A stretch of 60,525 nt of DNA from a virus: positions 1-60,525 of IMG/VR virus record IMGVR_UViG_3300045739_000092; one strand, written 5' to 3'. The first letter of the stretch is position 1; each line of letters opens with the position of its first letter. The notes under the pieces are model-generated. The model worked only from the letters and a program-made list of their open reading frames with translations, was not told the DNA's origin and did no database searches. A program made the position numbers and the translations under genes. Positions 20,274 through 60,525 of the stretch are shown here, piece by piece.

Positions 20274-20579
20274 ATGGCTGATCTAGCGTTCCTGTCGGCG
20301 GTCGTGTATGCGATCGTCTATGCCCTGAAGGAGCAGTTCGGACTCCAAGGGCACTACACCCGCCTGGCGGCTATCGCTTTGGGCCTCCTCATCGCCTTCA
20401 CGGCGGAGGTTCGGATGCTGACCGAGTACTCGGTCCCCTACTGGGTGGACGCATTCTTCACCGGACTAGCGATCGGACTGGGCCTCCCCAGTGTGTTCCA
20501 CAAGGCCACCCAGGCTGTGTCGAGAGTTGGCGAGTTCGCCTCCGGATCCTTCATAGTCGGAGAAACCGAAACGGACTAG
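20274..20579 (+). CDS. Holin-like membrane protein
   Basis: 101 residues; starts at the base after the endolysin stop. Hydrophobic stretches near residues 5-18, 30-45 and 55-75 (FLSAVVYAIVYAL; LAAIALGLLIAF; YWVDAFFTGLAIGLGL) are separated by short charged loops, with a polar C-terminus. Size, topology and position after the lysin are those of phage holins, which open the membrane for the endolysin. Ends 3 bases into the convergent uracil-DNA glycosylase gene. Confidence 0.7.
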   Translation: MADLAFLSAVVYAIVYALKEQFGLQGHYTRLAAIALGLLIAFTAEVRMLTEYSVPYWVDAFFTGLAIGLGLPSVFHKATQAVSRVGEFASGSFIVGETETD

Positions 20580-21517
20580 CTGACTACCACACCGTCGACG
20601 TTGGTCTTGATGGTGTGGATGGCACGAAGCATCGTCATATTGATCTGACGAGCGCGTCCGAGCATCCCGATACGGAGGAGCTCTTCAAGAGAGTAGCGGG
20701 GATAGTTGAGGCTGGACACTGAGGAGGGAACCTTGGTGGTTTCGTCCTTCGTGACTACCAACTTGTCGGAGAGTATGGCTGAGTAGAGAATGGCCCATCC
20801 CTGTTTGGAGATGGCTTCTGAGAAGTCCCTCTTCTCTATCTCTATTGACCTGGGGACCAGCTCTGACGGCCAGGAGAGGGGCTCGTAACCATCGAGGATC
20901 TTCTTGGCTAGAGCCATGTCTTCCCCGAGTTCAGAGTAGTCGCCCATACGGAGGTAATAGGCAGGGTGCTTCATGGGGAGAACGAGCCGACCTTCTCGGA
21001 AGACCGGTTTGCCCCTCACTGCCCCGATGTTGACCTCCGATTCGAGGACTCGCCGGGTAGCGACAGCGCCCATAGGGATGACCAACCAGGCACCAGAGAT
21101 GTCTAGTTGCTGCTCGAAGAAGGGACGACAGGCTCGGACCTCCTCGAGATTGGGATCCCGGTTCTTGGGGGGTCGGCAGCAAACCGTGTTCATGACGAAC
21201 ACTTCCTTGCGCTTGATCCCTACCTGCTTCAAGGTGTTGTCCAGTAACTTCCCCGACCTCCCTACGAACGGTATTCCCTTCATGTCCTCGTTGTACCCAG
21301 GTCCCTCCCCGATGATGGCGATGGGCCACGGGCCATGAATAGGACCTGACCATGGCACCGCTTGGGATCGAGACTCACTGAGAGGGCAGAGCTCGCATTC
21401 TTCAATGGCACGGCGGAGCTTGTTTCCTTTGAGCTCCCTCATGTAGTGCTTCCTCTTGTCGGGTGAGGGGGTGAGCTTGGCAGCCTTGAGAAGTTGAGCG
21501 TCACTCAGAAATGCCAT
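20576..21517 (-). CDS. Uracil-DNA glycosylase, family 4-like (Fe-S)
   Basis: 313 residues from ATG 21517, overlapping the transglycosylase gene by 13 bases. Iron-sulphur ligands are seen as CELC (Cys41, Cys44) and CCRPPKNRDPNLEEVRAC; the CRPPxNRxP spacing is the family 4 hallmark. Glycosylase motifs are GEGPGYNED and, near the C-terminal side, MKHPAYYL. Members are usually about 200 residues; the extra C-terminal 110 residues have no recognised domain. A phage enzyme would remove uracil from replicating DNA, or recycle host DNA. Confidence 0.85.
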   Translation of the reverse strand: MAFLSDAQLLKAAKLTPSPDKRKHYMRELKGNKLRRAIEECELCPLSESRSQAVPWSGPIHGPWPIAIIGEGPGYNEDMKGIPFVGRSGKLLDNTLKQVGIKRKEVFVMNTVCCRPPKNRDPNLEEVRACRPFFEQQLDISGAWLVIPMGAVATRRVLESEVNIGAVRGKPVFREGRLVLPMKHPAYYLRMGDYSELGEDMALAKKILDGYEPLSWPSELVPRSIEIEKRDFSEAISKQGWAILYSAILSDKLVVTKDETTKVPSSVSSLNYPRYSLEELLRIGMLGRARQINMTMLRAIHTIKTNVDGVVVS

Positions 21518-22074
21518 TGCGACCCATCTGGTTGGCAGACCCAATGCCCCCAGTTGGGAGCTGACCCGGCTCGAGGATGGCCCTGCGTCCATATCGACGC
21601 TGCTAGGGCGATGTTCTGCTCTGGATCGAAAGGGTCGAAACCCGATGTGTGCCAGAGGCCAACTATCTGGAACAATCCAGAAGCCCCGCTCGGGTTGTAG
21701 GCGTTGGGATCGCCTCGGCTCTCACACCACAGGACGTTGAGAGCTCCATCTACTGCCCATGCGGGGAAGTACTGCGAGACCAGATCCCGCCAGGCTTCGG
21801 CCCCGCCGGCAGGTGGTGAAGTGTTCCGAATAGGTGTCTGTTTCACGTCACGCGAAACAGCAGGGGGAGACGGAACGAAGTAGGGGCCGTTGAGCTCCTC
21901 GAGAGCCTGCCGCTCCTTCAACCTGTCATAGTGTTCGAGCCGTGCCTCGAGACGCTCGGTTGTCAAGACCCCTTCGTCGGGCTCGGTCTCATAGTAGGAG
22001 AAGGCACTCTCAGCCGGCCGGCACATGACCAACACCAGAACGAGAGCGAAGAACCAGACGAACAAGAGCCTCAT
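21505..22074 (-). CDS. Secreted lytic transglycosylase-like protein
   Basis: 189 residues. Residues 1-24 form a signal peptide (basic start, VWFFALVLVLVM core, AESA cleavage region). After a linker, an SLT-like domain starts near residue 93 with catalytic Glu118 in WCESRGDPNAYNPSGASGLFQI, the sequence block of transglycosylase/Rpf-like muralytic enzymes. It is not a virion gene by location; secretion would let it remodel the host wall from outside. ATG overlaps the stop of the 27-residue ORF upstream (ATGA). Confidence 0.8.
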   Translation of the reverse strand: MRLLFVWFFALVLVLVMCRPAESAFSYYETEPDEGVLTTERLEARLEHYDRLKERQALEELNGPYFVPSPPAVSRDVKQTPIRNTSPPAGGAEAWRDLVSQYFPAWAVDGALNVLWCESRGDPNAYNPSGASGLFQIVGLWHTSGFDPFDPEQNIALAASIWTQGHPRAGSAPNWGHWVCQPDGSQWHF

Positions 22075-22395: not shown

Positions 22396-22837
22396 AGGAG
22401 AAGTAGGTTCTTCCTGGCACAAGATCGAACTGAGGAAGGATCTCAGCAGTAGAGCTCACTCCGGTCTTGGTCTCGAAATCGGTTGGGGTATCGCAGTCCA
22501 GTACGTTCCAGATCCCTTCTACCCCATCATCCAAACAGGCGCCACCGCCTAGGTCTACAGCCCCTTCCTCCAACACTGGAACCTGGCAGTTGGTACACCA
22601 CTGAGGAGCCACGGGTGTCTGGTCGGCAGCAGGAGCTTCGCCCCACCCTGGAGGCAGGCTCAACAGGGTGTGGTGCTCGCTGCCCTCAACATTCCCGGTC
22701 ATGAGCGGGATCGGGCCGAACGCCGCCAGAAGGCACACAAGGGCTAGCCAGAGTCGATCCCGGTACACAACGAACGTCGCCGCCAGCGCACACCACACCA
22801 GGGTCCACAGCAGTCCGACGACGATGAGGATGGTCAT
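22358..22837 (-). CDS. Membrane protein with extracytoplasmic domain
   Basis: 159 residues from ATG 22837. Two transmembrane segments close together (about 3-24 and 30-46: ILIVVGLLWTLVWCALAATFVVY; LWLALVCLLAAFGPIPL), then a loop with WCTNCQVPV and two more cysteines, and a YFSYVREL end. The ATG overlaps the stop of the 44-residue gene upstream (ATGA). Role unknown. Confidence 0.6.
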   Translation of the reverse strand: MTILIVVGLLWTLVWCALAATFVVYRDRLWLALVCLLAAFGPIPLMTGNVEGSEHHTLLSLPPGWGEAPAADQTPVAPQWCTNCQVPVLEEGAVDLGGGACLDDGVEGIWNVLDCDTPTDFETKTGVSSTAEILPQFDLVPGRTYFSYVRELHAKGRIR

Positions 22838-22968
22838 TGAGAACACTCCTTCGTGTGTCCTGTTACCCCCCCACATTCGTCGCACTCTCCCCTCGTGCCT
22901 ACATGGACAAGTGCCCAGGCGAAGATGAGCCCACCTAGCCACGCTCCGATGATGGTGGGTATCGTCAT
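22834..22968 (-). CDS. 44-residue membrane/zinc-motif peptide
   Basis: ATG preceded by the repeated junction sequence (GAAGGGAGCGAGAA). A single hydrophobic helix (IIGAWLGGLIFAWALVHV) is followed by ECDECGGVTGHTKECSQ, four-ligand zinc-like spacing. Both ends overlap neighbours as ATGA. It is the promoter-distal end of the junction-repeat gene array. Confidence 0.6.
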   Translation of the reverse strand: MTIPTIIGAWLGGLIFAWALVHVGTRGECDECGGVTGHTKECSQ

Positions 22969-23171
22969 TTCTCGCTCCCTTCGATGATGCCCAGTCGCTC
23001 GCGCAGGTCATGGGGAAGACCCTGGTCGTCCTCGGCCCACGCCAAGACCTCCACCCAGTCAGCCCACGGCAGCACAGCGTAGATGCCAGAACCGCCCTCT
23101 ATCTCTAGCACGTAATGCTCCTGCCCTTCGCTGATGCCGTCCAGTATCGCCTCGACCTTCTTGACGCTCAT
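22965..23171 (-). CDS. Small protein of the junction-repeat array (KVxAxL family)
   Basis: 68 residues, MSVKKVEAILDGISEGQEHYVLEIEGGSGIYAVLP then an acidic helix. It is a paralogue of the array member at 23392-23652 over the first 35 residues (KVxAxLxGxSExxYxxEVxxxGxYxVxP). Ends GIIEGSEK where the shared junction DNA encodes its last residues. Function unknown. Confidence 0.6.
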   Translation of the reverse strand: MSVKKVEAILDGISEGQEHYVLEIEGGSGIYAVLPWADWVEVLAWAEDDQGLPHDLRERLGIIEGSEK

Positions 23172-23395
23172 TCCTCGCTCCCTTCGATGATGCGGTAGTT
23201 CGACCGACGCAGCGACCGCAGCCGCCGTTGAGCCTTCCACTCAGCCCGGCGACGACTTCGGTACAGAATGGGAGACCCGGTGTGGCTCCATGTCTTCCAC
23301 GAATCGCCCCCAGCGGACCAGCGGACCAGCGGGGCGTCCGCTACAGGTTGCCACCTCACGTGGCCCTCGTCGTTCACCCACTTCCTGACACTCAC
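23168..23395 (-). CDS. Small basic protein of the junction-repeat array
   Basis: 75 residues, GTG start just after a junction repeat. WVNDEGHVRWQPV and a very basic ILYRSRRRAEWKAQRRLRSLRRSNYR end, followed by IIEGSEE encoded by the next junction copy. The Arg-rich segment suggests nucleic-acid or membrane contact. No homologue recognised. Confidence 0.55.
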   Translation of the reverse strand: MSVRKWVNDEGHVRWQPVADAPLVRWSAGGDSWKTWSHTGSPILYRSRRRAEWKAQRRLRSLRRSNYRIIEGSEE

Positions 23396-23652
23396 TCCTC
23401 GCTCCCTTCGATGATGGCGATGACCTCCTCCACTTGACTGTTGCTCAGCCCACCCGGAACATTCCCTGCTCTGAGTGTCTCCACCGCCTTCTTGATGCGG
23501 TTGCGCTCCGCCTCTCGTACATCGCCCACCAAGTTCTGATTGTGTCCCTCCGGCACGATGTAGTAGGTGCCGGGGGGTACGTCTACCTCGATGCGATATC
23601 CGGTTTCTGATAGGCCAAACAGTGTCGCCTTGACCTTCCTCACCTCACTCAT
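23392..23652 (-). CDS. Small protein of the array with KVxAxL and ERxRIKKAVE segments
   Basis: 86 residues from ATG 23652. First half is paralogous to 22965-23171; second half has EAERNRIKKAVETLRAG, a helical motif repeated in three other array members (24265-24537, 24770-24973, 24970-25185). This chimera of two recurring parts fits reshuffling of small modules. Ends IAIIEGSEE. Confidence 0.6.
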   Translation of the reverse strand: MSEVRKVKATLFGLSETGYRIEVDVPPGTYYIVPEGHNQNLVGDVREAERNRIKKAVETLRAGNVPGGLSNSQVEEVIAIIEGSEE

Positions 23653-23887
23653 CCCTCGCTCCCTTCGATGATGGCGAAGTCCTCGTTCCCTTCGGGGGGA
23701 AGTGCCGCCAGCACACATCTTTGGAGGGTCCATCTGTGACGCGACCTGACTTCTCGTAGCGCCATCCGTGTATCCTCGCCCGCCGCCGAGCCTGGGGAAC
23801 GTCGTTGGCCCCCGGCACGCGCCTGCTTTGGCCGCACACATCGCAGATGAGGGTGATGCGAACGTACGTCGTCTTCTGGTAGCTCAC
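23645..23887 (-). CDS. Small zinc-motif protein of the array
   Basis: 80 residues, GTG start. VRITLICDVCGQSRRVPG, ARRRARIHGWRYEKSG and KDVCWRHFPP are the two cysteine pairs and central ARRxAxxxGW helix seen in many small phage zinc proteins. Another frame over the same DNA ends AIIEGSEG, but lacks these features. Because the junction repeat is read here as SPSSKGARDE, this gene shows the repeat is not a peptide tag. Confidence 0.6.
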   Translation of the reverse strand: MSYQKTTYVRITLICDVCGQSRRVPGANDVPQARRRARIHGWRYEKSGRVTDGPSKDVCWRHFPPKGTRTSPSSKGARDE

Positions 23888-24090
23888 TCCTCGCTCCCTT
23901 CAATGAGTACAGCGAGGGCCGCATACGAGGTATCAGACCCCAGGTGGACAAGTGGCCGGGGGTCAGGCTGACTACCTGAAACGCCACGGTCGGGCTTGCC
24001 CGCACCGCCGCCGTCCCCCCCGCCCGCCATTGGGCGGGGCAGATAGTCCAAGGCTTGTCCCATTCGCTCTACGGCCCTCGCTCTACTCAC
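23884..24090 (-). CDS. Small Gly/Pro-rich protein of the array
   Basis: 68 residues, GTG start preceded by GAGAAGAGAA, a diverged junction. A short helix (AVERMGQALDYLP) is followed by a Gly/Asp/Pro-rich linker and the C-terminal LIEGSEE. No family recognised; the coding call rests on overlaps with both neighbours and on the junction repeat. Confidence 0.45.
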   Translation of the reverse strand: MSRARAVERMGQALDYLPRPMAGGGDGGGAGKPDRGVSGSQPDPRPLVHLGSDTSYAALAVLIEGSEE

Positions 24091-24275
24091 TTCTCTTCTC
24101 GCAACCAGCTTCGTACCACGTTGAACGGTTCCCCGACGATCTTGGCGATGTCTGCGATCTTCATACCGTGTTCATAACGTAGATGCTTCGCCAGGGGGGG
24201 CTTCCAGTAGCCGCCATCATGGGGGTTGCCACTCATGTTGGCCCACGGTGTTCCTGTGTATCCGTCAGGACTCAT
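24087..24275 (-). CDS. Small helix-turn-helix protein
   Basis: 62 residues from ATG 24275. LAKHLRYEHGMKIADIAKIVGEPFNVVRSWLREEK is a compact HTH ending with the recognition helix, like resolvase/transposase-type or MerR-like minimal domains. Placed inside the array, it could regulate the minus-strand operon. The stop overlaps the next GTG. Confidence 0.6.
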   Translation of the reverse strand: MSPDGYTGTPWANMSGNPHDGGYWKPPLAKHLRYEHGMKIADIAKIVGEPFNVVRSWLREEK

Positions 24276-24537
24276 CCTCGCTCCCTTCGCTCGGCCATCC
24301 ATTGATGATGGCGAGGGCGTCACCAAGGGCGCAGTCACGGCAATCACACCCTGCTGCTCCCACGGGGGACTGCCGATACTCCTCCACCGCCTTCTTGATC
24401 CGCTGGCGCTCGTCGGCGCGGCCCTTGTCGTAGGCCGCTTGGTACGGGTTCACTCCTCGCCGGGGCCTCCGGGACTTTCCTTCTGCTAGTCCGTCATCGA
24501 ATCCCCGCTGGTAGTCGGCGTTCGCTGCTGTCCTCAT
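24265..24537 (-). CDS. Array protein with ERQRIKKAVE helix and Cys pair
   Basis: 90 residues from ATG 24537. YQRGFDDGLAEGK and YQAAYDKGRADERQRIKKAVEEYRQ are two repeat-like amphipathic helices; CDCRDC follows. The ADERQRIKKAVE segment recurs in three other array genes. Ends with SEGSEDES, a variant of the shared end. Unknown function. Confidence 0.6.
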   Translation of the reverse strand: MRTAANADYQRGFDDGLAEGKSRRPRRGVNPYQAAYDKGRADERQRIKKAVEEYRQSPVGAAGCDCRDCALGDALAIINGWPSEGSEDES

Positions 24538-24773
24538 TCCTCGCTCCCTTCGATGGCGGCTGGCATCGTTCCCCGAACCAAGGCAGCGAACATAGGCATT
24601 CGACGCATCGCCTCCGATATCGGGACATACTCCCACTCCGTTCCGAACGGCCCTGCGCCCGTGGGTAGAACCTCGACTAGGGAGTGGCATGACAGCGACT
24701 CGCCGCAACTCTCGCAGTGGTCGAGAGATTGTCCCATCCACGAGAAGCCATGAACACTTCGATTCCTACTCAC
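24534..24773 (-). CDS. Small array protein with Cys cluster
   Basis: 79 residues, GTG start. HCESCGESLSCHSLVEV gives a cysteine cluster able to bind zinc; later EWEYVPISEAMRRMPMFAALV and the end AAIEGSEE. ATGA/GTGA overlaps on both sides. No named family. Confidence 0.55.
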   Translation of the reverse strand: MSRNRSVHGFSWMGQSLDHCESCGESLSCHSLVEVLPTGAGPFGTEWEYVPISEAMRRMPMFAALVRGTMPAAIEGSEE

Positions 24774-24973
24774 TCCTCGCTCCCTTCGATGGCGACCAGA
24801 GCCACCGGCCCAGCGTCGTGTTCCTCACCGAAAGGGCAGAAGAGGGCTTGCCGCTTGTGGCGGTAGCACCACCACGTCGTCGGGGCGGCGCTGCGAATGC
24901 GCTCCCGCTCGTCCCGCCGGGCCTCGGCCACCTTGCGGGCGACGTACTCCCAGTTGTACCACCTCCGAATCAC
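24770..24973 (-). CDS. Array protein, YVARKxAEARR family
   Basis: 67 residues, GTG start. WEYVARKVAEARRDERERIRSA is almost the same as the N-terminal helix of 24970-25185 (EEYVARKMAEARKAERQRIRKA), showing recent paralogy. CYRHKRQALFCPFGEEH may bind metal. Ends AIEGSEE. Confidence 0.6.
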   Translation of the reverse strand: MIRRWYNWEYVARKVAEARRDERERIRSAAPTTWWCYRHKRQALFCPFGEEHDAGPVALVAIEGSEE

Positions 24974-25185
24974 TCCTCGCTCCCTTCGATGATGGCGATG
25001 ACTTGACCGTAGGCCACCATCGCACCGAACGCCTGCGCCTTATGGGGCTTGTCGATGGCAGCGTGGCGATGTTCCCACACCGCATCGGCCTCGGCCTGCT
25101 CCACCGCCTTCCTGATCCGCTGGCGTTCGGCCTTCCTGGCCTCGGCCATCTTGCGAGCGACGTACTCCTCGTCGTGCCTACCCAT
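24970..25185 (-). CDS. Array protein, YVARKxAEARK family (first gene of the array)
   Basis: 71 residues from ATG 25185 (GTG 25188 also possible; the TGAGG suits the ATG). EEYVARKMAEARKAERQRIRKAVEQAEA is a long charged helix shared with its neighbour. Ends VIAIIEGSEE. It lacks an upstream junction repeat, marking the 5' border of the array, and overlaps the lipoprotein gene by 8 bases. Confidence 0.6.
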   Translation of the reverse strand: MGRHDEEYVARKMAEARKAERQRIRKAVEQAEADAVWEHRHAAIDKPHKAQAFGAMVAYGQVIAIIEGSEE

Positions 25186-26085: not shown

Positions 26086-26745
26086 TCACTTCCTCTTCAG
26101 AGCTTGTATCAGCTTCTGAGCTCTACCCTTCCCGACTCCCTTCACTCCCTGAAGATCAGTCTCCCCTACCGACCACTCCAGGGGTGCCCCCCCGAAGTGG
26201 TCGTAGATGGCGCCAGCAACTTCCGGCCCGATCCCCTCGAACGATTGCAGTAGGTGGATCCCCCAATCCCTGTTGGTGACCTTTCCCCATGGACTAGTAG
26301 GTCCTGGGCGTCGGAGCAGCGATGTGTGTTTCGTCTTCTTCGACCACCGCTGGATAGACAAGATGGCGGCTACGGTCTCGTCTAGGTTCCTCACCCTCAT
26401 GGTGGGTACGTTGAACTCGAGGGCCATCGTCATCAGAAGGGGGTAGAACTGGTCACGATGGAACTGCCGGCGATCATCCATCAGATGCCCATCCACCGTC
26501 CATTGACCGAACCCCTCGATTATCAGAACCACATGATCGAGAGCCGCCATCTGGTGGAGCTCCTTCGAGAGCCTGTTGTCATAGACCGACGAGAGGAAAT
26601 CAGCGGGGAACTGCTTGCGCTGGATTCCGAACTTCCGGCGCTTAGCTGCCCAGAAGATGTCAACCCCATAACGCTCAGGCGTAGAAGACGTCTTGCCGAG
26701 AGCCTTGATTTCATCCGGCTCAGTCGGTGATATCAAGAGACTCAT
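26086..26745 (-). CDS. ERCC4-type nuclease with HhH domain
   Basis: 219 residues. GVDIFWAAKRRKFGIQRKQFPADFLSSV and VVLIIEGFGQW follow the ERCC4/XPF nuclease fold order, with the usual D...ERK-like core partly altered (GIQRKQF). Two helix-hairpin-helix units close the protein: FEGIGPEVAGAI and VKGVGKGRAQKLIQALK. Such proteins cleave branched DNA or act as structure-specific nucleases. Neighbours are a RecA-like ATPase and RecB-like nuclease, supporting a recombination module. ATGA overlap with the upstream gene. Confidence 0.75.
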   Translation of the reverse strand: MSLLISPTEPDEIKALGKTSSTPERYGVDIFWAAKRRKFGIQRKQFPADFLSSVYDNRLSKELHQMAALDHVVLIIEGFGQWTVDGHLMDDRRQFHRDQFYPLLMTMALEFNVPTMRVRNLDETVAAILSIQRWSKKTKHTSLLRRPGPTSPWGKVTNRDWGIHLLQSFEGIGPEVAGAIYDHFGGAPLEWSVGETDLQGVKGVGKGRAQKLIQALKRK

Positions 26746-26954
26746 CCTTCTAGTGGAGGAGCAGCAGAGAACCAGGCCTTGGCGTCGTGATCCCTATCAC
26801 GCTGAGGGTCGAGATGAATCCACCCCACTCTGAAGTCTGCCATCGAGAACCCGTCGTAGCGTCGGCTCCTTTTCGGGAGTTCCTCAAGAGGGATCCACTT
26901 GATGAGCTGATTACAGACCATGCAGGGCTTCGTCGTGGTTTCGGGAGTCGTCAC
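26742..26954 (-). CDS. Small hypothetical protein with Cys pair
   Basis: 70 residues, GTG start overlapping the stop of the ATPase gene. KPCMVCNQLIKWIPLEELPK and RVGWIHLDPQRDRDHDAKAW resemble the zinc-ribbon halves of small phage proteins in which a Cys pair and a His pair chelate metal. No known role; coupling places it in the recombination operon. Confidence 0.55.
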   Translation of the reverse strand: MTTPETTTKPCMVCNQLIKWIPLEELPKRSRRYDGFSMADFRVGWIHLDPQRDRDHDAKAWFSAAPPLEG

Positions 26955-27775
26955 TCTTCCTCCTCTTCATCTCCCGCCCGCCCTACTTTCCATCCAGCTA
27001 TCTTCAGTAGGTACTCCTTGGCAAAGCTCTTGCCAGAGAGATCCCTGTTGGTGACAACTTCCCGTTCTCGATCCTTGACGGTGGTGAAGGCCCACTCATC
27101 CTCCCCCTTAGACCTCATGTGGAGGATGGTGTGGGGGTAATGGGCAGTTCTCTTCTCGCCTTCTGGCTTGAACCCAATGGAGTCGAAGACCTCGATGATC
27201 TCCTTCTTGTCGGCCCAGGCACCGGAGCGGCTGAGAGGTTTCTGGCCTGTGGTGATGAGGACGTGAGCCTTGTTCCGCAAGAGAACTTGCTCGGCGAACC
27301 TCTTGTAGAGGGGCTTGATGACTCCCCAATCGGATGCCCCCTCGAACCCCTCATCGCTCTTCTTTGACTTCGATGCCTTCGCCGCTGCAGCCTTCCTTTC
27401 CAGGAAGTAATCGGCCATGTCCTTGCCGTAGGTCTCTTGGCTGAAGTAGTTCTGGGCTTCTTCCCAAGCATTCGAGAAGAGGTCACAGATGATCCAGTCT
27501 CCCCTAGCCGCCTGCGGCCTGATTTCGGCAATGGCCTCCATGTACTCATCGAAGCTGTCGACCTCCCAAACTTCTAGGTTGTCGAGCTTCCCGAAGCTCT
27601 TCGATTGCAGCATCCGATCGACGGCGTAGTCGGTGTCGATGACGTACATCTTGGACGAGCTTCTCGTCTTCTGTAGCAACTTGGCTACCGACAACCAGGC
27701 TCGGGTCTTGCCGGCTCCTGGGCCACCCATGAGCAAGATCCGTTCACGTGCTTTCCCCGGGGGGTGTATCGGCAT
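26951..27775 (-). CDS. RecA-like P-loop ATPase, Sak4-like
   Basis: 274 residues. Walker A GGPGAGKT at residues 17-24; Walker B-like DWIICDLF near 93-100; a sensor-like AHVLITTGQ follows. The tail is highly acidic (GDEEEEE), a feature of recombination and SSB-interacting proteins. Size and order fit phage Sak4-type single-strand annealing/RecA-like ATPases. It is flanked by a RecB-like nuclease and an ERCC4 nuclease, so together they may form a recombination-dependent replication or repair module. An alternative is a general AAA_24 ATPase. Confidence 0.7.
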   Translation of the reverse strand: MPIHPPGKARERILLMGGPGAGKTRAWLSVAKLLQKTRSSSKMYVIDTDYAVDRMLQSKSFGKLDNLEVWEVDSFDEYMEAIAEIRPQAARGDWIICDLFSNAWEEAQNYFSQETYGKDMADYFLERKAAAAKASKSKKSDEGFEGASDWGVIKPLYKRFAEQVLLRNKAHVLITTGQKPLSRSGAWADKKEIIEVFDSIGFKPEGEKRTAHYPHTILHMRSKGEDEWAFTTVKDREREVVTNRDLSGKSFAKEYLLKIAGWKVGRAGDEEEEE

Positions 27776-28740
27776 CAGTCCTTCTCCTTTGCCGTGACTC
27801 GGAGAACATCGAATGGTTCTCCTGTGGTGATGAATCGACCGAAGACTTCATCCCCGAGTTCGGCCCTGGCCCTGGCCTTGTCGAAGCGTTCAGCACCCTT
27901 CTGTTTGTGGACACTGAACTTGTACTCGTCGGTCTCTGACTTGATAGGTTCCCCTTCATGGGCCTCTCCGCCGGCCTTGATGATGCTGGCTATCCGGTTC
28001 CGGAGTTCGTTCTTCTTCTCTTCCATGTCTGCGAGGACCGACTTCACCGTCAGGTACTCAGCAGCCAAGGAATCGAGTTGGATGGCGGTGATCCCAGAGG
28101 GAGGAAGCAAGTCGCTGTCGGGCGCCTCGTCGTGGAGGAACCAGTACTGGCAGGGGAACCGCTCTGGATCGCACTCTGGCATGTCACCCAAGCCGAAAGC
28201 CTTGAAGACCTTCATGGCCTTGGCCTTGATCTCGCGTAGGGGGATGGGGGGTTTCTGGATAACGAACGTATCTAGGAAGCCATCGTCTCTTCGCTTCACG
28301 GCGTAGAGCGCATCTCGGGCGCCGCTCCCATACATGTAGGCAGAGATCTGCCAGGCGTACTCGGGTCTAGCAGCGAACTTCCCATCCATCCATTTGTCGA
28401 ACGCTGCTCGGGACATGGACTTAGCCTCGAAGATCCTGTTCGGGATGCCCTTGACTCGTCCGTCAAGATGGCCCACGATGACTAGCTTCTGTGGAATCAC
28501 CCAAAGCTCGACCTCCTCCTGATCGTCAACGATCTCGATACCGTCAAGGGCCAGCGATTCCTTGATGGCAGCTTCGTGGAGGTCTCCCTCAGCGAATATC
28601 CGCTTCGTGTTCTCGGAATGGGGTTCGGGATCAACCCCGGATAGGGATGCCCACAGGGCTCGAGAGCAGTACCCGAGGGACGATCCACGAATAACCGTGA
28701 CTCCATCGGGACGAACGTATGCCATGCCGGCGTCACTCAT
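27775..28740 (-). CDS. RecB/Cas4-like PD-(D/E)xK nuclease
   Basis: 321 residues, SD GGAGGAAGG. Nuclease core: His55 in GDLHEA, Asp93 in GHLDGR, and Glu105-x-Lys107 in FEAKS, in the right order for the PD-(D/E)xK RecB family. Cys25 and a CDPERFPC pair could be remnants of the Cas4/AddB iron-sulphur site. The C-terminal third is charged and helical. Phage members produce 3' tails for annealing proteins; the adjacent Sak4-like ATPase fits. Stop overlaps the ATPase start. Confidence 0.8.
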   Translation of the reverse strand: MSDAGMAYVRPDGVTVIRGSSLGYCSRALWASLSGVDPEPHSENTKRIFAEGDLHEAAIKESLALDGIEIVDDQEEVELWVIPQKLVIVGHLDGRVKGIPNRIFEAKSMSRAAFDKWMDGKFAARPEYAWQISAYMYGSGARDALYAVKRRDDGFLDTFVIQKPPIPLREIKAKAMKVFKAFGLGDMPECDPERFPCQYWFLHDEAPDSDLLPPSGITAIQLDSLAAEYLTVKSVLADMEEKKNELRNRIASIIKAGGEAHEGEPIKSETDEYKFSVHKQKGAERFDKARARAELGDEVFGRFITTGEPFDVLRVTAKEKD

Positions 28741-44387: not shown

Positions 44388-44416
44388 AATCTACGGCAAA
44401 GGGTGGCACAATGCAA
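44388..44416 (-). promoter_or_regulatory. Promoter for leftward early operon
   Basis: Minus strand TTGCAT (complement of 44411-44416), 17-base spacer, TAGATT (complement of 44388-44393). The -10 ends 7 bases before ATG 44380. It lies at the edge of the GAAGGGTG repeat block. Confidence 0.55.
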
Positions 44417-44940
44417 GTAGAAAGATTTCGCGAAGATTTCGCCGGCGAAGGGTGGAAGGGTGGAAGGGTGGAAGGGTGGAAGGGTGGAAGGGTGCCAGGA
44501 TCTAGGCCGAAAGTCGGCGAAGGGTGAAGACGCCGACGCCGAAAGGGTGAAGACTGCCGGCAAGGGTGAGAATGCCGGCGAAGTCGAAAGGGTGGCGAAA
44601 GGGTGAAGGGTGGAGTGTGGTCGTCGCCACCCTTCCACCCTTACGGCATAGGAAGGGTGAAGGGTGAAGGGTGCCGGCGTCGCTGACTGTGAGCGCGTCG
44701 CCGGCGTGAGAATGGCGAAGGGTGAAGGGTGAAGGGTGGAGGGTGACGACTACAGGGTGAAGGGTGACCGATGCCGGCGAAGGGTGAAGGGTGGCGATGG
44801 CGTCGACGTTGCCGGCGCCGAATCCACGATGATCGGCGAAGGGTGGAAGGGTGCCGGCGAAGGGTGACGACTACAGGGTGAAGGGTGAAGGGTGGAAGAC
44901 GTCGCCGGCGTGGAAGGGTGGAAGGGTGAAGGGTGAAGAC
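44397..44940. repeat. GAAGGGTG iteron-like block
   Basis: About 33 copies of AAGGGTG in 545 bases, mostly as GAAGGGTG or GAAGGGTGA with short spacers; six are perfect tandem copies at 44447-44494, and two near 44627-44641 are inverted. GCCGGCG is interspersed. No convincing gene is present from 44381 to 45145: the only long frames are low-complexity His/Pro/Ser readings of the repeat. Situated upstream of the early operon promoter; possible replication origin or protein-binding array. Confidence 0.8.
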
Positions 44941-45145
44941 GCTAGCGGAGAGTAGGGGCACCCCCACCGAGGGTGGTCGACCCCACACAGGGTGGTAGGA
45001 GTCCCACGCTACAACAACCCTGAACCCTTTTCGCCACTCTTTGCCATATTTCTGACTCAAGTTGCTAACTTGCTCGTTTGTTGGCACAACCCATCGAGTG
45101 TTTACACGCGTTCCCTTGTGCGGGGAGCGGGGTTCAGCCCCCCTC

Positions 45146-45768: not shown

Positions 45769-45840
45769 CGCGGGGTGGAGCAGAGGCAGCTCGCTTGGCT
45801 CATAACCAGGAGGTCGGGGGTTCGAGTCCCCTCCCCGCTA
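45769..45840 (+). tRNA. tRNA-Met (CAT), possibly initiator-like
   Basis: 72 bases form a full cloverleaf. Acceptor stem GCGGGG/CCCCGC with a C1-U72 mismatch, D stem GAGC/GCTC, anticodon stem CTTGG/CCAGG around CTCATAA (anticodon CAT), T stem GGGGG/CCCCT around TTCGAGT. The unpaired 1:72 pair is a property of initiator tRNAs, but only two of the three usual G-C pairs are at the anticodon stem base. CCA is not encoded (CTA follows). The single tRNA here sits just upstream of the late operon. Confidence 0.85.
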
Positions 45841-45957
45841 CTAGGGCTTCTTCAAGCCCCAGACCTTCCGCAAGAGTTCCTCATCGGTTGGTGGCCTACG
45901 GATCCACCAGATGACCCACCCCACCAGCACCACCCATCCGGCAACAATCACGCTCAT
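45841..45957 (-). CDS. 38-residue membrane peptide opposite the tRNA 3' end
   Basis: ATG 45957 (GTG 45951 fits the AAGGAG spacing better). IVAGWVVLVGWVIWWIRRPP is a single Trp-rich TM, then DEELLRKVWGLKKP. Its stop is the base after the tRNA. On the plus strand the same DNA holds GGGCTT-CTTC-AAGCCC (45844-45859), which could be the tRNA terminator stem. Coding status is moderate. Confidence 0.5.
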   Translation of the reverse strand: MSVIVAGWVVLVGWVIWWIRRPPTDEELLRKVWGLKKP

Positions 45958-59184: not shown

Positions 59185-60524
59185 TGGCGAAGGTAGCCGC
59201 GGTCTTCATCGAGGATGCCCGCTACGTCGGCATCTGGCCCTCTTACGTCGAGAGCCTTCGCCTTCTCGTCAAGGCGCTGGGGAACGGTGACCTCTACGTC
59301 ATCGACCAGACCCCCGATGGTTGGTACGACGACGGAGCTTCCGAGGTCACCCGCTATCCCCTAACCGCCTACAATCCTGGTCCTATCCGCGAACTGGTCC
59401 CCCTGGGTCACACCCTCGTCGCCGTCGAGGATTCCGGCACCGACCTCTCCCCTACCATCAAGCACCTGTACGGCACCGGGTTCCGGAATAAGAACATCGG
59501 TTTCCGTTGCGGGCAGGACGGCCGCATGGTCCGCACCGAGGACGGCGGAGTCTCCTTCGTCATGCAGACCTCCGGCACCGGGGTCGATCTCTACGATGTC
59601 AGTCACCCCGCTGCTCTATTCGCTTACTCCTGCGGGCAATCCGGAACCATCGTCGCCACCTCGGACGACGGCGACAACTGGAACCCCCAGACCTCCGGCA
59701 CCGCTCAACACCTGCGAGCCATCCACTTCCCCCACGACGAGGAGGTCGGCTACGTCGTCGGTGAAGCAGGCACCATCCTCAAGACGACGGACCTCGGCGT
59801 TACCTGGAGCGCTCAGACTTCCGGCACCGTCGAGCACCTGCGGGGGGTCTACTTCCTCGACAACGAACAGGACGGTTGGGCCGTCGGGGACGCTGGGACC
59901 ATCCTCGCCACCGAGGACGGCGGCACCACCTGGGTCGCTCAGACCTCGGGTACCGCCAACGACCTCTACGATGTCGAGTTCAAGGACGGGAACACGGGAT
60001 GGGCCGTAGGTGAGCTAGGCACCATCCTCAAAACGACCGACGGGGGAACGACCTGGGTGGCTCAGACCTCCGGGGTGGCCGTGATCCTCCAGTCGGTCTC
60101 GGTCCGCTCCTCCACGAAGGTCTGGGCCTGCGGCATGGCCGACACCATCCTCGCCACCGCCGATGGCGGGACCACCTGGAACACCCAGACCTCCCCGCTC
60201 TCCGGCAAGGACCTGTACGCCATCTCGTTCCACTACGACGACAACCAGGGCATCACCTGCGGAGAGTCCGGCGCTGTTCTCCGCACCGTCGACGCCGGGG
60301 TCACCTGGACCCAGCCCAGTCCCGGCACCAAGGTGGCGCTGTCCGCCTTCTCCCACCCCGACAACGCCATGTACGTCTTCGGTCCCCACAACGGTCTCCA
60401 CAAGGACTTCATCCAGCCCGACTACCACGTCTACATCGATGGCCTTACCGGCAATCCCGATGTCCGTGACGCGGTTACGATGGTTCTACTAGACAGGTTC
60501 GACCAGCATCCTTCGGAGCCGTAA
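59184..60524 (+). CDS. YCF48/BNR-type beta-propeller virion protein, full length
   Basis: 446 residues from ATG 59184. Residues 1-90 are a distinct N-terminal segment (VAAVFIEDARYVGIWPSYVESLRLLVKALG). The rest is at least seven propeller blades of the (V/I)GxxGTI(L/V)xTxDGGxxWxxQTSG type. The same gene, with variants, occupies 1-1086 at the other contig end. YCF48-type propellers are protein-binding scaffolds; in virions they are probably adhesin or baseplate components. Confidence 0.85.
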   Translation: MAKVAAVFIEDARYVGIWPSYVESLRLLVKALGNGDLYVIDQTPDGWYDDGASEVTRYPLTAYNPGPIRELVPLGHTLVAVEDSGTDLSPTIKHLYGTGFRNKNIGFRCGQDGRMVRTEDGGVSFVMQTSGTGVDLYDVSHPAALFAYSCGQSGTIVATSDDGDNWNPQTSGTAQHLRAIHFPHDEEVGYVVGEAGTILKTTDLGVTWSAQTSGTVEHLRGVYFLDNEQDGWAVGDAGTILATEDGGTTWVAQTSGTANDLYDVEFKDGNTGWAVGELGTILKTTDGGTTWVAQTSGVAVILQSVSVRSSTKVWACGMADTILATADGGTTWNTQTSPLSGKDLYAISFHYDDNQGITCGESGAVLRTVDAGVTWTQPSPGTKVALSAFSHPDNAMYVFGPHNGLHKDFIQPDYHVYIDGLTGNPDVRDAVTMVLLDRFDQHPSEP

Positions 60525-60525
60525 T
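59439..60525. repeat. Direct repeat of contig ends, right copy
   Basis: Counterpart of 1-1087, same length, no indels. The copy ends at the TAAT that starts the next gene in the left copy, so joining 60525 to 1088 gives one uninterrupted late operon. Confidence 0.9.

Follow-up and report, generated by a model that had tools for sequence, protein, structure and literature searches.

The stretch of viral DNA analyzed here (the window: 60,525 nucleotides (nt), positions 1 to 60,525 of IMG/VR record IMGVR_UViG_3300045739_000092) comes from an uncultured virus of bacteria and carries on its minus strand eleven consecutive, overlapping small genes, m1 (25185-24970) to m11 (22968-22834), with products of 44 to 90 amino acids (aa). 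Nearly all of the junctions between these genes bear a copy of one short element. We consider it rather probable that the junctions couple translation and double as short homologies through which small genes are gained, lost, and swapped.

The core of the element, GAAGGGAGCGAG, is unchanged at 9 of the 10 junctions from m1-m2 to m10-m11 and mostly lies inside ATCGAAGGGAGCGAGGARTGA; the count of nine follows from eight matches to ATCGAAGGGAGCGAGGARTGA plus a shorter copy at m4-m5, which has one base fewer ahead of the ATG (Table 1). With up to 3 mismatches allowed, a search of the whole 60.5-kb record with ATCGAAGGGAGCGAGGARTGA returned only those eight matches, which all fall on the minus strand within 22965-24990, and 100 dinucleotide shuffles returned none. 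No copy was found at any other gene of the record. A partial tenth copy was seen 27 nt upstream of the m7-m8 copy. In pairwise comparison, the stretches identical from junction to junction measured 12 to 33 nt, the longest being shared by m1-m2 and m8-m9.

Such an array is unusual. The highest number of open reading frame starts with a common 11-mer was 9 in the window, 12 in the Cluster K phage Anaya, and 10 in G004, a relative described below, and the 171 comparison loci (1.9 Mb, fetched for other reasons) had a maximum of 4 starts per common 11-mer, usually 2. Exact-pattern scans of IMG/VR with CGAAGGGAGCGAGGARTGA and of GTDB genome-set contigs with AAGGGAGCGAGGARTGA detected no contig with two or more copies, and a 30-nt blastn search of the element against phages gave chance-level matches only. 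Single exact matches elsewhere often sit at the stop/start overlaps of unrelated genes; because the sequence is a natural strong start site, a lone copy carries no meaning.

Junction anatomy and conservation at the DNA level

The element takes in the final codons of the gene before it (usually ..I-E-G-S-E-E), a Shine-Dalgarno (SD) sequence, GAAGGGAG, the spacer CGAGGA, and a stop/start overlap, RTGA. Eight pairs are possible between this SD and an actinobacterial-type 16S tail (an assumed tail), and with the same assumed tail the pairing amounts to about -11.8 kcal/mol at element starts, compared to -5.6 and -6.4 kcal/mol at the starts of m1 and m6, which have no element. The original prediction counted nine copies among ten successive genes, which holds for the starts of m2 to m11 (eleven genes when m1 is included); its claim that each copy supplies the SD and overlaps the end of the previous gene is borne out by the strong SD and the overlapping stop/start at the junctions. 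Mechanistically, a terminating ribosome would be handed to the next start through the extended SD, the short spacer, and the overlapping RTGA. Because each copy ends one gene and starts the next, small-gene changes at the junctions would leave translation intact.

Conservation of the junctions reaches past the SD into the spacer CGAGG and into synonymous sites. The codons GAA-GGG-AGC-GAG are identical in 9/9 copies; their shares of the respective synonymous sets in the long genes of this phage are 31, 29, 13, and 70%. The probability that nine independent codon draws all agree is about 7e-13, a value that assumes independent draws, and recent copying would equally give identity. These codons indicate that the DNA, not the peptide alone, is kept at the junctions, whether by constraint or by recent copying. 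Eight of the nine copies lie in one phase of the upstream gene (EGSE), and only the m7 copy lies in another. A run of six C residues at 23694-23699 stands directly ahead of the off-frame m7 tail, and the alternative frame of m7 reads ..EGNEDFAIIEGSEG, as the neighboring genes do. A real frame difference is no more likely here than an assembly error or a recent frameshift, and because the C6 run adjoins it, the out-of-frame argument was set aside. Thus, the earlier claim that the nucleic acid is the conserved entity is upheld by the identical codons in 9/9 copies, while the part of it that relied on a gene reading the element in another frame is doubtful.

Inside the array, a promoter scan limited to the sigma-70-like type found no match, and no minus-strand terminator was matched. 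Nor were hairpins enriched by the junctions: the mean upstream stem was 5.1, compared to 4.6 in shuffles (standard deviation, 0.4). A junction hairpin was rejected, as stem lengths were near the shuffled values.

Between these identical ends, most gene bodies are unrelated. After the last ten residues had been trimmed from each protein, the related pairs were m1/m2 (z score, 11.9; N-terminal helix), m1/m8 (8.9), m8/m10 (7.8; N terminus), and, with z scores of 5.3 to 5.6, m4/m8 and m1/m4, and a module ER.RI.KAVE was common to m1, m4, and m8. The m3-m6 similarity was marginal in this comparison, and m3, m5, m6, m7, m9, and m11 had no clear relation to the others. These pairs agree with the sharing of modules in differing combinations that had been predicted; m8 itself is an internal chimera, with an m10-like N terminus joined to an m1/m4-like helix. 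Pfam and PHROGs assigned none of the micro-genes to a family with confidence, and the helix-turn-helix (HTH)-like m5 and the Cys/His patterns of m3 and m7 had weak or no family matches. In every m-gene, the called frame scored higher for coding than the alternatives on that strand, the preference being weak for m3, m6, m7, m9, and m11. The products may have accessory roles, and, to judge from its position, the array may be expressed early.

The ERCC4-to-UDG locus in related phages

Relatives of the window were reached by alignments: TerL and whole-record searches led to G004 (IMG/VR 3300005096_000055), the exonuclease to L211, and the ERCC4 gene to L213 to L217. DNA similarity searches of phages, tblastn with the AAA protein, m1, or m7, and single-protein scans with AAA and UDG found no relatives, and a polymerase-exonuclease scan returned 67 loci, none sharing the gene neighborhood of the window. 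Identities of G004 to the window are 55% for TerL, 54% for the major capsid protein, 43% for the helicase, and 40 to 46% for the exonuclease, AAA, and ERCC4 proteins.

The locus between the ERCC4-type and UDG-type genes is variable, and no relative found carries homologues of m1 to m11. In G004, L211, and L214, the ERCC4-type gene is followed almost directly by a gene whose product is homologous to the C-terminal region of the window's UDG-type protein, and the array-bearing 4.5-kb block of the window is absent; the homology of this neighbor is weak (24% identity in L209). In L215, the ERCC4-type and UDG-type genes enclose one or two small genes, and the interval in L216 and L217 is about 600 to 700 bp. 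The neighbor gene (L209, 9018-9743; L211, 4185-4910; L214, 4206-4913) aligns mainly with the C-terminal part of window gene 20576-21592. It apparently has no UDG domain, and domain gain or loss is possible.

In L213, the ERCC4-type gene is followed by eight small genes (43 to 113 aa) with no detected similarity to m1 to m11. Two of them, n5 and n6, have bodies unrelated to each other despite exact common ends, with CTGAGTGGAGGATCGAATGAGC (22 nt) repeated exactly at their starts and CCGAGGTGTCTGATGA (16 nt) at their ends. Copy 1 of the 22-nt repeat encodes the last residues of n4 (..SEWRIE stop), and copy 2 is the n5 stop followed by an untranslated leader. The corresponding locus of L213 thus has a different junction sequence of its own, exactly repeated and kept as DNA regardless of frame, free of the homopolymer caveat. 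The composite n5-n6 junction (L213, 12064-12101) also holds a 7-codon frame, MTEWRIE, made of the start of one junction and the end of the other, possibly a relic of a deleted micro-gene. As regards gene gain, loss, or swapping at boundaries, the relatives are without the whole array or have other genes, and they are too distant for single exchanges to be followed.

Another type of start repeat was observed in G004 (L207, about 1.4 to 11.4 kb, minus strand), where about 19 copies of (G)AAAGGGGTAAG(C/A) stand directly before ordinary small-gene starts, mostly with a hairpin of varying sequence directly upstream (mean stem, 6.5 compared to 4.4 in shuffles; standard deviation, 0.25). This is a different start-associated system in a relative, one that resembles the extended start-associated sequence (ESAS) form of the Cluster K start-associated sequence (SAS) discussed below. 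On the minus strand of G043 (L225 to L227), the 26-nt GGGAAAGGATGACAAACCATGGCTAC is exact at two gene starts.

Table 1. Positions of the junction elements, micro-genes, and bordering genes in the window
Feature	Coordinates	Strand	Remarks
Junction m1-m2	24970..24990	minus	ATCGAAGGGAGCGAGGAGTGA; overlapping GTGA stop/start
Junction m2-m3	24770..24790	minus	Element copy
Junction m3-m4	24534..24554	minus	ATGA overlap
Junction m4-m5	24276..24288	minus	Core GAAGGGAGCGAGG; one base shorter before ATG
Junction m6-m7	23884..23904	minus	Element copy
Partial extra copy	23681..23693	minus	GAAGGGAACGAGG; within m7 end
Junction m7-m8	23649..23669	minus	Out of m7 frame as assembled
Junction m8-m9	23392..23412	minus	33 nt identical with m1-m2
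Junction m9-m10	23168..23188	minus	Element copy
Junction m10-m11	22965..22985	minus	GAGAAATGA
m1	24970..25185	minus	71 aa; YVARKMAEAR..ERQRIRKAVE; C-terminal IIEGSEE
m2	24770..24973	minus	67 aa; N-terminal half paralogous to m1
m3	24534..24773	minus	79 aa; contains Cys/His
m4	24265..24537	minus	90 aa; ERQRIKKAVE module; C-terminal EGSEDES
m5	24087..24275	minus	62 aa; HTH-like (weak matches); end without element
m6	23884..24090	minus	68 aa
m7	23645..23887	minus	80 aa; Cys/His motif; tail in different frame as assembled
m8	23392..23652	minus	86 aa; m10-like N terminus, m1/m4-like helix
m9	23168..23395	minus	75 aa
m10	22965..23171	minus	68 aa
m11	22834..22968	minus	44 aa; final gene with element-type start
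ERCC4-HHH nuclease-like gene	26086..26745	minus	Upstream border of variable locus
UDG-superfamily gene	20576..21592	minus	Downstream border of variable locus
Sak4-like AAA ATPase and Cas4/RecE-like exonuclease genes	26951..28740	minus	Just upstream; candidate recombination machinery

Elsewhere in the window, positions 44400-44950 are apparently noncoding and G-rich, contain dozens of AAGGGTG(A/G) motifs, some in tandem, and lie upstream of a tRNA-Met gene (45769-45841); this is possibly an origin, packaging, or regulatory region. Over the first 300 nt compared, the two ends of the record (1-1087 and 59439-60525) show about 87% identity, with similarity running to both ends, and the ends of record G039 are likewise similar to each other. 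The window record may represent a genome that is circular or has terminal redundancy and was closed with sequence of a strain variant.

Weighing the explanations

Under the explanation that we favor, recombination or template switching at the element copies would cause small genes to be gained, duplicated, swapped, or deleted, and the array would have grown by such events at the ERCC4-nuclease-to-UDG-type locus, which varies in small-gene content across the phage group. An exchange function of the junctions is plausible for these genes, and the Sak4-like and Cas4/RecE-like genes, which belong to the gene run of the array, count in its favor. Several points weigh against it. A length of ~30 bp is quoted as the minimum for RecA or lambda Red recombination (PMC2327257), and the common stretches of 12 to 33 nt are at or mostly below that minimum; the explanation therefore has to invoke rare events or template switching. 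No pair of relatives was found with m-genes exchanged at junctions, the element is absent at junction m5-m6, and the chimeric m8 indicates that part of the module mixing took place within genes, away from the junctions. Identity of the copies could, furthermore, stem from start-site constraint alone. The cassette system of the original prediction stands in part: the other micro-genes of L213, with their identical 22- and 16-nt ends, and the phage pair Island3/Brujita (see below) speak for it indirectly, whereas no swap of an m-gene was seen and m8 was mixed internally. In a wider form, which we put forward only tentatively, a lineage of uncultured phages would reserve one locus for small genes, with a stop/SD/start junction particular to that lineage as the connector for any of them; phage-encoded annealing recombination would insert, delete, and exchange micro-genes there with translation preserved and with no need for a site-specific recombinase.

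The array might instead reflect tandem duplication and divergence only, one micro-gene having been copied with its junction and selection keeping the strong ATGA start, without cassette exchange. It fits this account that m1 and m2 are clear paralogues, that several modules recur, and that near-identical single copies at the stop/start overlaps of unrelated genes mark the element as a natural strong start site. Nonetheless, m3, m5, m6, m7, m9, and m11 have no clear relation to the rest, yet junctions keep the spacer CGAGG and the synonymous sites; total divergence of the bodies beside 33 identical nt (m1-m2 and m8-m9) is hard to obtain without conversion or exchange, and the unrelated L213 bodies match exactly at both ends. 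We regard duplication alone as a rather unlikely account that still deserves some weight. The element might also be a regulatory start-associated sequence, to which a phage or host factor binds and so controls a small-gene regulon, as proposed for the Cluster K SAS. It would suit this reading that conservation extends past the SD to the spacer CGAGG, an argument also made for the Cluster K SAS (PMC3203893), and that G004 has roughly 19 start repeats of another type with hairpins. However, the copies form one contiguous run in which no promoter or terminator was matched on the strand concerned; the run is probably transcribed as a unit, so that separate regulation of each gene would gain little, and no other gene of the record has a copy. 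This regulatory role is unlikely.

Selection on the peptide, with the C-terminal IEGSEE serving as a shared protein tag, would agree with the common frame of 8/9 copies, but the four codons show zero synonymous changes in nine copies, the residue just ahead of the start is not constant (E, D, K, or G), and the repeated junction of L213 is coding in one copy and noncoding in the other. Given the codon identity across the nine copies, the tag was rejected as very improbable. Small genes between identical short sites also recall an integron-like cassette array with a site-specific recombinase, yet neither a tyrosine (PF00589) nor a serine (PF00239) recombinase domain was detected in the record, with controls positive. 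The site, moreover, is not palindromic, has no adjoining hairpin enrichment, and coincides with the ribosome binding site. With both domains missing from the record, this reading was likewise rejected, and its chance appears negligible; it would now need a recombinase that acts in trans or is encoded beyond the contig.

Comparison with known systems

The lambdoid nin region is a familiar small-gene hotspot in which accessory genes follow one another with stop/start overlaps; its junctions are not known to all bear one repeated sequence. Repeated, over-conserved start sites are known as the Cluster K SAS (PMC3203893) and the Cluster EF SAS (PMC7302621). Like the Cluster K SAS/ESAS and the Microbacterium Cluster EF SAS, the window element is a short, asymmetric, over-conserved repeat with an SD core, present in one orientation and about ten copies per genome before the starts of small nonstructural genes of different families. 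Direct comparison of the window element, GAAGGGAGCGAGGA, with the Cluster K consensus, GGGATAGGAGCCC, gave more than 2 mismatches. When the SAS sites of Anaya were rechecked, they lay mostly in gaps of >50 bp, only four overlapped the upstream stop, and the distance to the start varied; in the window, 9/9 copies take in the end of the preceding gene together with the stop/start overlap and form a single contiguous array. Moreover, about half of the Cluster K sites have an upstream inverted repeat (ESAS), whereas the window element has no extended inverted repeat. Cluster K SAS, named as the closest parallel by the original prediction, is accordingly alike in kind, as an SD-core repeat before starts, but not in sequence.

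A second parallel concerns gene boundaries. Gene 68 of Island3 is the published example (PMC3029335): compared to Brujita, this small gene has come or gone between two copies of a gene end. In our recheck, gp68 carried the gp67 end (53/58 nt), and gp68 was missing in Brujita, where the sequence rejoins just after the common end. As in the window, a small orphan gene stands between two copies of a gene end; Island3, however, offers one event with ~58 nt, and the window offers nine junctions in series with 12 to 33 nt, each of which is also a start site. The PeSL cassettes of T4-type phages (Arbiol 2010 and Comeau 2014, as cited in PMC4503421) likewise place repeated sequences between small early genes and, in that citing account, are proposed to mediate shuffling. 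They are described there as a promoter plus a stem-loop, whereas the array has no sigma-70-like match or stem enrichment, and its element is the stop/SD/start overlap itself.

An identical short sequence at both ends of a gene, the feature of conserved boundaries, is present in the window and in L213. Altogether, the array unites two ideas that were already known, repeats associated with starts and sequences conserved at gene boundaries. It bears on the old question of how phages gain and lose many small genes without operon breakage, given that most mosaic boundaries have no common sequence. Because the proposed boundary sequences here occur in nine copies, are also start sites, and have a counterpart of unrelated sequence at the corresponding locus of a relative, the boundary-sequence model is directly testable in this system.

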